Source: Devosia sp. Root635 (GTDB taxonomy: Bacteria > Pseudomonadota > Alphaproteobacteria > Rhizobiales > Devosiaceae). From it: DNA of 64,000 nt. Positions 29,164 through 32,411 of this stretch are shown here, one piece after another. Position 1 is the first letter of the stretch. The number at the start of each line of letters is the position of its first letter. The position numbers and the translations under genes were made by a program. Under the pieces are notes generated by a model. It saw nothing but the letters and a program-made list of their open reading frames with translations. It did no database searches and was not told the DNA's origin. The stretch lies in NCBI RefSeq assembly GCF_001427605.1, contig NZ_LMGZ01000018.1, positions 124,001-188,000 of the forward strand. The letters run 5' to 3'.

Positions 29164-29257
29164 GATTCCCCCTCAGGCCCAGATGCCACTTTGGCAGCCA
29201 TTGGGGTTGAAATGAGGCGGCTTGTCACCGCGTCGCGAATCCCCCATCAGTGGGGCG

Positions 29258-29441
29258 ATGGTTCCGGCTACCTTGCTTAGGCGGCTGGATTAAAAGGGAA
29301 CACGGTGCGACGTACCCATCAGGGCGCAAGACCGTGGCTGCCCCCGCAACTGTGAGCGGATAGCGACACCGGGACATGCCACTGGCCGTAAGGCTGGGAA
29401 GGTCCGGCGCCGCAGCGACCCGCGAGCCAGGAGACCTGCCG
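29258..29441 (+). ncRNA. Cobalamin riboswitch
   Basis: The conserved elements of the adenosylcobalamin riboswitch appear in order: a 5' GGTTCC pairing with GGGAAC, the segment CCCCCGCAACTGTGAGCGG, ATGCCACTGG, GGCTGGGAAGG, and the 3' box GCGAGCCAGGAGACCTGCC, ending near 29440. It lies 127 bases upstream of an ABC importer operon and should lower its expression when the cofactor is abundant. Boundaries are approximate. Confidence 0.95.
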
Positions 29442-29493
29442 TCATCATTTCCTTTCAACCCGGCCGGGGTGTGCCGCGGGAGACGATGATGAC
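29441..29493 (+). promoter_or_regulatory. Riboswitch expression platform stem
   Basis: GTCATCAT (29441-29448), starting directly after the riboswitch 3' box, is perfectly complementary to ATGATGAC (29486-29493). The second arm contains the two candidate start codons of the short leader ORF. The intervening loop contains a smaller GC palindrome (CCCGGCCGGG) and the GGGAG at 29478-29482. The pairing is seen in the sequence; its switching role is inferred. Confidence 0.5.
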
Positions 29494-29593
29494 CAGTTGC
29501 CGCGACATCGCTGCTTGTCCACTGCTCGGATCGCCCGTGCCCTCCTGCCTTGTGGCGGAGGTTGCCCATGGCACAAGGCGACAATTCGGCTGA
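29489..29593 (+). CDS. Possible leader peptide (34 residues) between riboswitch and ATPase gene
   Basis: Short ORF starting at the second of two adjacent ATGs, with GGGAG six bases upstream. It encodes a 34-residue peptide with Cys at 4, 10 and 20 and ends 25 bases inside the ATPase gene in another frame. Its translation would pass through a hairpin (29541-29561) that hides the ATPase ribosome site. No homologue is recognised, so it could be chance; position and signals make a leader role possible. Confidence 0.35.
   Translation: MTSCRDIAACPLLGSPVPSCLVAEVAHGTRRQFG
29541..29561 (+). promoter_or_regulatory. Hairpin masking the ATPase ribosome site
   Basis: CCTCC at 29541-29545 pairs with GGAGG at 29557-29561, extended by CC/GG around TTGT. 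GGAGG is the ribosome site of the ATG at 29568 (six bases spacing). Confidence 0.5.
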
Positions 29594-30395
29594 CCGGTTC
29601 ACCGGCGATCGTCCGGCGCGTCTCGATATCGACGATCTGAGCTGGGGTGCCCAGCCCGGAAATCCCATTATCGGCCCGATTTCGCTCGCTATCCAGCCGG
29701 GCGAAATGCTGGCGCTGGTCGGTCCCAATGGGGCCGGCAAGTCGAGCCTGTTGCGTTGCCTCTATCGCTATCACCGGCCCATCACGGGCCAGGTCCGCCT
29801 CGATGGCGAGGATATCTGGTCGCTGCAGGGCAAGGCCGTTGCCCGCCGCGTCGCCACCGTTTTGCAGGAGCAGGCGAGCGATTTCGGCCTCAGCGTTGCC
29901 GAGATCGTCGAGCTGGGCCTGACGCCACATCGTGGCGGCTGGGGCGCTGATCGCGCGGACCATGAGGCGGTCGAGGCTGTCCTCACCCTCATGGAACTGA
30001 GCCACCTGGCGCCGCGTGATCTCGCTACTTTGTCGGGTGGCGAGCGGCAAAGGGTGATGATCGCCCGTGCCTTGCTGCAAAAACCTGATCTTCTGATTCT
30101 GGACGAGCCGACCAATCACCTCGACATCCGCCACCAGCTCGAAGTGCTCGACCTGCTGGTCCGGTTGCGCTGCACGGTCATCGTCTCCCTGCACGACCTG
30201 GCATTGGCCTCGGCCCATGCCGATCGCGTGCTGCTGCTCGATGGGGGCCGTGTCGCCGCCATCGGCGCGCCGGCAGAAGCGCTCACCCGATCCAGTATTC
30301 GCGCGGCTTTTGCCGTCGAAACCCTGCTCGACGCTCATCCGGCCACGGGCCGGCCGCGTCTCAGCTTCTATCTCCCCAACCAGAACCAGGAGTGA
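29568..30395 (+). CDS. ABC transporter ATPase, corrinoid/siderophore type
   Basis: 275-residue ATPase of the FecE/BtuD class. Walker A GPNGAGKSS at residues 52-60, signature LSGGERQ at 155-161, Walker B LLILDE at 175-180 and the H-loop His in VIVSLHDLALA. The ATG at 29568 has GGAGG six bases upstream. The gene sits under a cobalamin riboswitch and is followed by a binding protein and a permease, so it most likely powers uptake of cobalamin or a related corrinoid across the inner membrane (BtuD-like). Ligand assignment rests on the riboswitch. Confidence 0.92.
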   Translation: MAQGDNSADRFTGDRPARLDIDDLSWGAQPGNPIIGPISLAIQPGEMLALVGPNGAGKSSLLRCLYRYHRPITGQVRLDGEDIWSLQGKAVARRVATVLQEQASDFGLSVAEIVELGLTPHRGGWGADRADHEAVEAVLTLMELSHLAPRDLATLSGGERQRVMIARALLQKPDLLILDEPTNHLDIRHQLEVLDLLVRLRCTVIVSLHDLALASAHADRVLLLDGGRVAAIGAPAEALTRSSIRAAFAVETLLDAHPATGRPRLSFYLPNQNQE

Positions 30396-30400
30396 TTTTC

Positions 30401-31342
30401 ATGCGCTTTGTTTTCGCACTCGCTGCCCTTGCCGCAGTCAGTTCTTCGGCGCTCGCCGCCGGCTATCCGGTTACAGTCCAGAGCTGTAACCGCGACGTGA
30501 CCTTCGATTCCGCCCCGCAGCGCGCCGTCTCCAACGACGTCAATCTCACCGAGATGATGCTTGCCCTTGGCCTGTCGGACCACATGGCCGGCTATACCGG
30601 CGTTTCGAGCTGGAAGACGCTGGATGAAAAGCTCCGTGAAGGCGTCGCAGAACTGCCCGAACTGTCACCGGAATATCCGAGCAAGGAAGTGCTGCTCGGC
30701 GCCGATGCCGATTTCTACTTTGCCGGCTGGAACTACGGCATGCGCGTCGGCGGCGAGGTCACGCCAGAGACGCTGGCCGCATTCGACATCGCCGTCTACG
30801 AGCTTACCGAGAGCTGCATCCACATCATGGACAAGCCCAAGGCCTCCATGGACGATCTCTACAACGACCTGCTCAATCTCGGCGCCATCTTCGACGTCTC
30901 CGACCGCGCTACGGCGCTGGTTGACGGCTACATGGCCGACCTCGCCGATTTCCAGGCCACCCTGCCAACCCTCGAAGCGCCGGTGCCGGTCTTCGTCTAT
31001 GACTCCGGCGAGGACAAGCCGTTTACCGCCGGGCGCTTTGCCATTCCTACGGCGCTAATCGAGGCGGCGGGCGGCTCCAACATCATGGACGATGTGCAGT
31101 CGAGTTGGGTCGAGATCGGCTGGGAGCCGGTGATCGAGCGCAATCCCGAGGTCATCGTCATCGTCAACTACGGCGACGTGACCGCCGAGCAGAAGATCGA
31201 CTTCATGAGGTCCAACCCGGCCTTCGCCTCCATTCCGGCCGTGGCCAATGATCGCTTCGTGGTGCTCGAATATGTCGAGGCGACGCCGGGCCCGCGCAAT
31301 ATCGAAGCGGTCACGCGACTCGCCGCCGCCTTCCGGGAGTAG
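30401..31342 (+). CDS. ABC transporter periplasmic binding protein, corrinoid type
   Basis: 313 residues with a signal peptide (about 1-20, SSSALAA). The fold is that of FepB/BtuF-type class III binding proteins: RAVSNDVNLTEMMLALGLSD at the first domain, a long linking helix (MDDLYNDLLNLGAIFDV) and ERNPEVIVIVNYGD with RNIEAVTRLAAAFRE at the end. AGGAG lies eight bases before the ATG. Second gene of the riboswitch-controlled operon, five bases after the ATPase gene. Probably binds corrinoids (BtuF-like). Confidence 0.9.
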   Translation: MRFVFALAALAAVSSSALAAGYPVTVQSCNRDVTFDSAPQRAVSNDVNLTEMMLALGLSDHMAGYTGVSSWKTLDEKLREGVAELPELSPEYPSKEVLLGADADFYFAGWNYGMRVGGEVTPETLAAFDIAVYELTESCIHIMDKPKASMDDLYNDLLNLGAIFDVSDRATALVDGYMADLADFQATLPTLEAPVPVFVYDSGEDKPFTAGRFAIPTALIEAAGGSNIMDDVQSSWVEIGWEPVIERNPEVIVIVNYGDVTAEQKIDFMRSNPAFASIPAVANDRFVVLEYVEATPGPRNIEAVTRLAAAFRE

Positions 31343-31346
31343 GTCT

Positions 31347-32411
31347 GTGTCGCACCGCCACCTCGCCACCGGCCGCCGCCATGCCGCGGCCCACTGGCTG
31401 CCGGCCCTTATCGTAGGGCTGATCATCCTGCTCGCCGTCACCATGTCGGTGGCGGTGGGGGCAGGGGCGGTGCCCATCCCCGTCGAAACGGTCTGGCGCA
31501 TCGTCGCGTCCAGGCTCATGCCCGGCAGCGTCGTCGTGGACTGGTCTGCTGGGCGCGAGGCCATTGTCTGGGAGGTACGCCTGCCGCGCATCGTGCTCGG
31601 GGCCATTGTCGGGGCCAGCCTCGCCGTCGTCGGTGCCGCTCTGCAATCGGTCACCCGCAATCCGCTGGCCGATCCGCACCTGCTCGGCATCTCGTCTGGC
31701 GCGGCTTTCGGGGCCATCCTGGTGCTGCTGCATACCGGCATGTTCCTCGGTCTCGTCACAGTGCCGCTTTTTGCCTTCTTCGGGGCGCTGTTCGCGACCG
31801 GGCTGGTGCTGGCGGTTTCCAATCTCACAAGGTCGCAGAGCGCCGGAAGGCTGGTGCTGGCGGGCGTCGCCGTCAGCTTCATCATCACTGCGGCGGGGAA
31901 CCTCTTCATCTTCCTCGGCGATCCCCGGGCGGCCCATACGGTGGTGTTCTGGATGCTGGGCGGGCTGGGCCTGGCGCAATGGCCGCAATTGCCGTTTCCA
32001 TTGGCGGCCCTGGTGCTTTGCGGCTCCTATCTCGTCGCGCGGGCGCGCGCCCTCAACGCCATGACCCTGGGCGACGAAAGCGCCACGACGCTGGGCATTC
32101 CCGCCGGCCGCTTCCGGCTCACGGTCTTCGTCGTCTGCGCGCTGCTCACCGGCTCGGCGGTGGCCTTTTCCGGCGTCATCGCTTTTGTCGGGCTTATGGT
32201 TCCCCATATCGTTCGAATGGGCGTTGGCGGCGACTATCGGCGGGTGCTGCCGCTCTCCGCGCTGGTCGGGGCCATCTTCCTCGTGCTGGCCGATATCGCC
32301 GCCCGCATCCTCATGCCGCCGCAGGATATGCCGATCGGCGTGCTGACCGGCATTATCGGCGGGCTGTTTTTCGTCGGCCTGCTGCGCTGGCGCAAAACGG
32401 GTGGCGAATAG
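31347..32411 (+). CDS. ABC transporter permease, FecCD/BtuC family
   Basis: 354 residues with about nine to ten membrane helices; FecCD family features include RLPRIVLGAIVGASLAVVGA, RNPLADPHLLGISSGAAFGA and FVGLMVPHIVRMGVGGDYR. I chose the GTG at 31347, which has GGGAG seven bases upstream and begins four bases after the binding-protein stop; the frame is open earlier but overlaps that gene. Completes the importer. The order ATPase, binding protein, permease differs from the common btuFCD order. Confidence 0.92.
   Translation: MSHRHLATGRRHAAAHWLPALIVGLIILLAVTMSVAVGAGAVPIPVETVWRIVASRLMPGSVVVDWSAGREAIVWEVRLPRIVLGAIVGASLAVVGAALQSVTRNPLADPHLLGISSGAAFGAILVLLHTGMFLGLVTVPLFAFFGALFATGLVLAVSNLTRSQSAGRLVLAGVAVSFIITAAGNLFIFLGDPRAAHTVVFWMLGGLGLAQWPQLPFPLAALVLCGSYLVARARALNAMTLGDESATTLGIPAGRFRLTVFVVCALLTGSAVAFSGVIAFVGLMVPHIVRMGVGGDYRRVLPLSALVGAIFLVLADIAARILMPPQDMPIGVLTGIIGGLFFVGLLRWRKTGGE

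Follow-up and report, generated by a model that had tools for sequence, protein, structure and literature searches.

A cobalamin riboswitch predicted to act through translation of an overlapping upstream open reading frame before an ABC importer operon in Devosia and other Hyphomicrobiales

In the 64,000-nucleotide stretch of Devosia sp. Root635 DNA that was analysed (the window), a cobalamin riboswitch stands before an operon for a predicted B12-type ABC importer. The arrangement is probably a two-step B12 OFF switch, in which the riboswitch masks a short upstream open reading frame (uORF) and translation of the uORF unmasks the ribosome site of the ABC transporter ATPase. With B12 bound, the aptamer loop L5 would pair with loop L13 and hold a hairpin made of the P1 3' strand, P13, L13, and the uORF ribosome site and start, which would block the uORF. 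With B12 scarce, the hairpin would open and ribosomes would translate the uORF, traverse a second hairpin and the point where the ATPase gene begins, and terminate just within that gene (26 nt in at this locus). Their passage would unmask the ATPase ribosome site and turn the importer on, and the terminating ribosome, by occupying the mask's 3' arm, could hold the mask open. That B12 binds, that the uORF is translated, and that ribosomes do the unmasking are inferred, as are the transported substrate and the sign of the regulation.

All features of the locus lie on the forward strand. The aptamer (29242 to 29457) is a member of Rfam family RF00174: cmscan aligned it with the full covariance model (positions 1 to 189) at 129 bits (E value, 4.3e-32) against a gathering score of 31.5, with the whole aptamer covered. 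Loop L5 (CCCCCG, 29341 to 29346) was located from the sequence and the Rfam structure line, and the names L5 and L13 follow the L5-L13 scheme of PMC10653944 (in part). The P13 hairpin (29459 to 29480) consists of CCCGGC, loop L13 (CGGGGTGT, 29465 to 29472), GCC, and then GGG, the last of which belongs to the uORF ribosome site. The CCCCG of L5 (29342 to 29346) is complementary to the CGGGG of L13 (29465 to 29469), a predicted kissing contact with P13 next to the ribosome site; in cobalamin riboswitches, L5-L13 pairing is described as stabilising P13 and the hairpin over the ribosome site (PMC10653944, in part). The P1 3' strand (GCCGTCATCAT, 29438 to 29448) has, by the aptamer alignment, two alternative partners, the P1 5' strand and the uORF start. 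As the preliminary description had observed, GTCATCAT (29441 to 29448) and ATGATGAC (29486 to 29493) are exact reverse complements. Their pairing, of the P1 3' strand with the uORF start, forms the base of the P13 hairpin and was calculated at -11.8 kcal/mol. Since the P1 5' strand competes for the P1 3' strand, the pairing would fit the anti-start role described for the Mycobacterium tuberculosis ppe2 leader.

Downstream, the relayed gene encodes an ABC transporter ATPase (29568 to 30395; Pfam ABC_tran), and the same operon contains a periplasmic binding protein (30401 to 31342; Peripla_BP_2) and a FecCD-family permease, the open frame of which (31248 to 32411) holds the true start inside it. 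Of the NCBIfam models listed for the operon proteins (for the ATPase, the best 25 of 190), none reached its curated cut-off; corrinoid transport is suggested by the riboswitch together with the protein families. The ATPase has a ribosome site of its own, GGAGG, 6 nt before the ATG, where a ppe2-type gene would have none. A second cobalamin riboswitch occurs in the same genome (G000:C1:383599-383810), before a 60-codon ORF that resembles CbtB, and no uORF was found there by the rule of our script.

Loci for comparison were picked by ATPase homology and not by the presence of a uORF. Orthologues at 65 to 100% identity were found in 21 of the 75 genomes of the genus, that of Root635 included, a count that leaves out eight weaker matches (L053 to L060; 44 to 48% identity), and all 21 were preceded by riboswitch motifs. 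Other genera of the Devosiaceae yielded eight matches; the seven with the layout also had the riboswitch motifs, and the one without the layout was L068 (50% identity). Two further Hyphomicrobiales families, f41 and f44, contributed 30 and 5 loci, giving a final set of 63 (28 from Devosiaceae and 35 from f41 and f44). One of the searches gave a locus in 30 of 45 matching genomes; among the other 15, G248 corresponds to L073 and G423 to L072, which are among six ATPase-homologue loci outside the set that lack the relay layout (L068 and L071 to L075). L070 and L077 to L080 were left out as duplicates of L195, L192, L200, L191, and L194, respectively. A motif-pattern search of genome contigs proved too unspecific, returning general ABC ATPases from many phyla and none from Devosia, and its 80 loci were not used. 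Devosia sp. A8/3-2 has the riboswitch according to Rfam and was left uncounted because the motif script detected no B12 box in it. Among plasmids, the two best matches to the ATPase were both from Devosia (67 to 70% identity). On the Devosia neptuniae plasmid the relay ORF is present and overlaps the annotated ATPase start by 23 nt; it is absent from the gene table of that plasmid, the PLSDB tables being incomplete. The leader of one locus in our set, L043, which comes from a genome of the same genus as the window, is identical by eye to that of D. neptuniae.

Across the 63 loci (45 distinct rows), the four core pairs of P13 were paired in 96.1% of cells, compared with 82.4% in shuffles, and both sides had changed in 27 cells, a count that none of 500 shuffles matched and that compares with 10.3 in shuffles. 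The loop-closing pair was GC in 17 of the 45 distinct rows, CG in 16, AU in 10, and something else in 2. Two other measures were less telling, as the number of pairs with double changes (2) was reached by 24 of 500 shuffles and is not clearly above chance, and the number of further pair types (5 versus 6.0 in shuffles) is not above chance. The pairing over the uORF start averaged -12.4 kcal/mol in the 28 Devosiaceae loci versus -6.4 for shuffled arms, and -11.5 versus -5.6 kcal/mol in the 35 loci of the other families. Each locus's own arm was better than the mean of its relatives' arms in 19 of 28 Devosiaceae and in 32 of 35 others. We considered a chance complementarity of ATG with CAT, because the pairing seemed broken by eye in L046, L051, and L063; it is indeed weak in the first two, and in L063 another register is formed. 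That reading was ruled out, since on average the pairing beats both shuffled and swapped arms. The earlier proposal that the riboswitch controls the short ORF is therefore strengthened: a platform masking that ORF recurs in relatives, with P13 and the start-masking arm covarying. These comparisons support an expression platform that would mask the ribosome site and start of the uORF and not those of the ABC ATPase.

The uORF itself (MMTSCRDIAACPLLGSPVPSCLVAEVAHGTRRQFG, 29486 to 29593) has 35 codons followed by TGA and is preceded by a GGGAG ribosome site (29478 to 29482). The preliminary description had the ORF and this site right but gave 34 codons, a count that starts at the second ATG (29489) instead of the first (29486). 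It also placed the end of the ORF 25 bases inside the ATPase gene; the ORF does cross the ATPase start, and its TGA (29591 to 29593) ends 26 nt inside. For the main analysis, ORFs of at least 25 codons with ATG starts only were accepted. Without the length filter, the first ATG after L13 was in the same frame in 56 of 63 loci, and the remaining seven had an extra upstream ATG in another frame (ORFs of 2 to 17 codons), 5 nt away in six and 8 nt away in L195. All 63 loci had a purine match resembling a ribosome site 5 to 12 nt before the chosen ATG, some of them weak (AAGG, AGAAG). In the 28 Devosiaceae loci the ORF has 31 to 40 codons and starts 52 to 58 nt after the B12 box.

In 59 of 63 loci the open uORF crosses the following ribosome site and start (ATG or GTG; TTG in L061) and is out of frame with the gene it overlaps, as in a masked overlapping uORF of the ppe2 type. 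Counted from the uORF ATG, the distance to the following start is 1 mod 3 in 57 of those 59 loci (70, 73, 76, 79, 82, 85, or 94 nt), the exceptions being L193 and L219. Up to the next start, the uORF frame contains no stop in 1,346 codons from 54 distinct sequences of the three families, and the other two frames of these sequences contain 54 stops in 1,346 codons and 26 in 1,294. Among 25 distinct Devosiaceae rows, the counts were 0 in the uORF frame and 29 and 14 in its two alternatives, and 1000 column permutations produced no stop-free case; in the 13-row f41 set, 32/1000 and 52/1000 permutations were also stop-free. L064 was left out of the Devosiaceae stop and permutation test, and L041 and L064 out of alignment A5. 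Internal gaps in an unguided alignment of the 28 Devosiaceae loci were only 3 or 6 nt long. The aligned sequences show a uORF frame that is preserved open, with its phase kept and, in Devosiaceae, its stop confined to a narrow zone, which bears out the earlier view of an ORF running through the hairpin and across the ATPase start. Four of the 63 loci (L041, L064, L198, and L199) have no recognised ribosome site and start after the uORF. Two of these, L198 and L199 of f41, keep the riboswitch motifs, P13, and an ORF of 34 to 38 codons with no recognised masked start behind it, and they are possible intermediates in the gain or loss of the relay.

The signal had originally been thought to be relayed by a leader peptide, a claim that we could not sustain. 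In Devosiaceae the peptide conservation score was reached by 169 of 1000 permutations and is not significant; by parts, the figures were 75/1000 over codons 1 to 15 counted after the start, 132/1000 over codons 1 to 19, and 593/1000 over the final part. The scores of the 13-row f41 set were reached by 637/1000 and 265/1000 permutations. Frame 0 scored best of the three forward frames in Devosiaceae, without significance. By these permutation tests the uORF shows neither the conserved peptide nor the regulatory codons of a peptide-sensing leader ORF. With no detectable conservation of the peptide, selection seems to have acted on translation as such and not on its product. Twelve of the 28 Devosiaceae uORFs (L037 to L040, L042 to L046, L048, L063, and L066) start with MA(L/H)DD or MMA(L/H)DD, and the remaining uORFs of the set do not. 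Early acidic residues have been reported as important in the Salmonella mgtQ uORF (PMC8092293, in part).

Within the uORF, a predicted inner hairpin covers the ATPase ribosome site (CCTCC-T-GCC / GGC-GGAGG, 29541 to 29561; -13.9 versus -9.1 kcal/mol in shuffles). CCTCC (29541 to 29545) pairs with GGAGG (29557 to 29561) around an inner GCC/GGC stem and a TTGT loop, 6 nt before the ATPase ATG (29568). An outer stem (29531 to 29581) joins TCGCC (29531 to 29535) with GGCGA (29577 to 29581) and GTGCC (29537 to 29541) with GGCAC (29570 to 29574), its duplex reaching -17.0 versus -11.2 kcal/mol in shuffles. Taken by itself, this sequence has an ordinary fold energy (z = -0.52, with 59 of 200 shuffles folding equally well), which leaves conservation to carry the argument. 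A local hairpin was predicted before the next start in all 59 loci, and the inner hairpin averaged -12.3 versus -8.0 kcal/mol for shuffled sequences in Devosiaceae and -11.1 versus -7.6 in the other families. In many loci outside the Devosiaceae, the outer stem forms between codons of the uORF and the opening codons of the next gene, and there the stems differ yet remain complementary: GGUUC/GAACC in the majority, GGCUC/GAGCC in L069, CGGUC/GACCG in L193, UGGUUC/GAACCA in L220, and AUGUUUCC/GGAGACAU in L219. RNAalifold returned four consensus pairs for the other families, one of them changed on both sides, and none for the second-mask alignment of the Devosiaceae. Of the elements whose conservation the preliminary description had proposed to compare, the ORF frame and the start-masking arm recur in relatives, and the second mask has no consensus within the Devosiaceae. 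In many Devosiaceae the outer stem did not outperform shuffles (mean rank, 0.32; L036, L040, L047, and L051 are examples), nor did the outer duplex in L211 to L214.

The hairpin lies where it had first been seen, but the claim that it hides the ATPase ribosome site is harder to uphold, as pairing at the following ribosome site does not exceed that in shuffles (mean unpaired, 0.27 versus 0.28 in 59 loci; Devosiaceae, 0.16 versus 0.22; others, 0.36 versus 0.33). Burial of the ribosome site was accordingly rejected as a proof of masking. Because of this level, the missing Devosiaceae consensus, and the weak outer duplexes, we rate the second mask over the ATPase ribosome site, as modelled, as likely and no higher. 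The ATPase also has a good ribosome site of its own, so initiation independent of the uORF is possible.

The uORF stop lies 20 to 32 nt into the ATPase gene in 22 distinct Devosiaceae, counted without L041, L042, L044, L052, L064, and repeated sequences. Stops make up 1.3% of codons in that frame of the ATPase gene, and a random codon meets one so soon in 7% of cases. In L041 the stop ends 14 nt into a presumed GTG start. In f41 and f44 the uORF ends 26 to 137 nt inside the next ORF, which has 85 to 94 codons in 16 of 30 f41 loci (no Pfam match in L197, the one searched) and 136 codons in the f44 loci L076, L191, and L192, where the one searched resembled DUF1636 at 26.1 bits versus a Pfam cut-off of 31.6. 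The crossed start opens an ORF of just 25 to 62 codons in 8 of 59 loci (L042, L044, L052, L194, L196, L220, L222, and L223); in the first three of these the ATPase lies further downstream. A short ORF that separates the uORF from the ATPase or DUF1636 gene (L042, L044, L052, L069, L070, and L078) contains an inverted repeat like GTAATGTAATAACATTAC, which in some loci codes for NVITLH; in L042 and L044, this short ORF meets the ATPase by an ATGA overlap. The repeat resembles a metal-regulator operator and would lie within the operon.

The place of the stop bears on an alternative that we regard as unlikely, a ppe2-like termination and re-initiation in which ribosomes that have completed the uORF back up and initiate again at the ATPase, with the second hairpin incidental. 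The uORF stop is indeed close behind the ATPase start in 22 distinct Devosiaceae, re-initiation is the main mode of ppe2 (PMC11260477, in part), and masking of the ribosome site does not exceed shuffles. However, the overlap is 20 to 32 nt in Devosiaceae and 26 to 137 nt in the other families, as against 4 nt (AUGA) in ppe2; GGAGG gives the ATPase a ribosome site of its own; and outer stems that differ but stay complementary would serve no purpose. Transcriptional action, with Rho ending transcription in the leader when the uORF is left untranslated and the hairpin without a role, strikes us as distinctly improbable. Rho-dependent termination has been put forward for the metE riboswitch of M. 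tuberculosis and weighed for ppe2, but the authors of the ppe2 study conclude that the effect is not explained by Rho (PMC11260477, in part), and it would leave unexplained a frame that is open across the start and closes soon after, as well as the complementary stems around the next start. There is very little room for a chance open frame with a riboswitch acting directly on the ATPase or on transcription: the amino acid sequence lacks significant conservation, open frames are common in GC-rich DNA, and the 13-row set had its 32/1000 and 52/1000 stop-free permutations, yet the absence of stops from 1,346 codons (the other frames have 54/1,346 and 26/1,294), alignment gaps of 3 and 6 nt, the kept phase, and a ribosome site and P13 placed on the uORF start all speak against it. 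A +1 shift from the uORF into the ATPase frame, with the 1 mod 3 phase of 57 of 59 loci kept for a fusion protein like the minor one observed for ppe2 (PMC11260477, in part), is scarcely credible, given no common slippery sequence at the stops by eye, another phase in L193 and L219, and common descent as an explanation of the phase.

We also considered that B12 riboswitches might have a general habit of carrying uORFs, and this found no support in a control sample of 61 B12 riboswitch loci, the best-scoring ones of the genus and order. Nine of the 10 orthologue loci in it showed the relay and one had a short ORF by the script's rule, versus none of the 51 other loci, which comprised 10 direct cases, 10 with another short ORF, and 31 with neither. 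Another B12 riboswitch in the genus is followed by a second type of leader ORF, with 6 codons reading M-x-x-P-S-G-stop and a strong ribosome site (L004, L006, L009, L015, L019, and L026; L229 to L237). The next gene, which it does not overlap, starts about 90 nt further on and has 223 codons in four of six loci, with a longer frame in L009 and L026. Of 136 genomes of the family, 9 matched a pattern demanding the P-S-G codons and the ribosome site, and none matched the reversed pattern used as a control; in these leader ORFs the peptide itself may matter.

Relatives with a direct arrangement were also found. In Gemmobacter aquarius, behind the same riboswitch, an annotated DUF1636 gene (150 codons) starts at the place of the uORF and is followed by ABC importer genes. 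On a Sinorhizobium meliloti plasmid, a 146-codon ORF at that place runs into an annotated, shorter DUF1636 gene. Judging by gene order, these are one-step relatives in which the first gene of the operon replaces the uORF. In Paracoccus denitrificans the gene immediately upstream of the ATPase encodes a TonB receptor, and the motif script detected no B12 box within 900 nt.

Direct layouts (Gemmobacter, Sinorhizobium) and relayed ones (Devosiaceae and the two other families) form a natural series in which the added step could be tested. We lean, at a little better than even, toward a wider reading for all three Hyphomicrobiales families, that the B12 riboswitch acts via a sacrificial ORF whose sequence is free and whose frame, phase, and (in Devosiaceae) stop are fixed so that the terminating ribosome props the mask open. 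Expression would then need both low B12 and active translation, and the relay would have arisen more than once, here and in Mycobacterium. If so, the lone M. tuberculosis example would become a recurrent, phylogenetically broad design of riboswitches acting via translation of an otherwise free ORF. There is a practical caution as well, since the frame nearest a riboswitch may be an unannotated uORF.

Among known systems, the Salmonella mgtC-mgtB leader offers a parallel in its mgtQ uORF, a short ORF that promotes translation of the next gene via overlapping alternative stem-loops; the available part of that report names no riboswitch, and acidic residues of the peptide are required there, whereas the Devosia uORF peptide is not detectably conserved (PMC8092293, in part). 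Translational cobalamin riboswitches of the Escherichia coli btuB type share the L5-L13 kissing loop that stabilises P13 and the ribosome site hairpin, but they mask the ribosome site of the regulated gene itself, and here it would be that of a uORF one step upstream (PMC10653944, in part). A literature search by titles and abstract openings, with most subscription papers outside its reach, returned no such relay in Alphaproteobacteria. The preliminary description knew of no two-step case at all, a statement overtaken by M. tuberculosis ppe2 (uPPE2), already published, in which a B12 riboswitch masks a uORF whose translation the gene requires (PMC11260477, in part). Common to ppe2 and Devosia are the B12 riboswitch and an L13 hairpin that masks the ribosome site of an out-of-frame uORF overlapping the gene; dependence of the gene on uORF translation is reported for ppe2 and predicted here from sequence. 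The available part of the ppe2 report describes a proposed class IIb-like aptamer, a 4-nt AUGA overlap, a gene without a ribosome site, and mainly re-initiation (PMC11260477, in part). The Devosia locus has a full-length Rfam-type aptamer, an overlap of 26 nt (20 to 32 nt in the 22 distinct Devosiaceae), and an ATPase with its own, probably masked, ribosome site, and the Devosia-type relay serves an ABC importer operon in Hyphomicrobiales, in another phylum. Given the ppe2 precedent, we regard the Devosia arrangement as a variant of that relay, with a longer overlap and a gene whose own ribosome site would be masked, in a different phylum.
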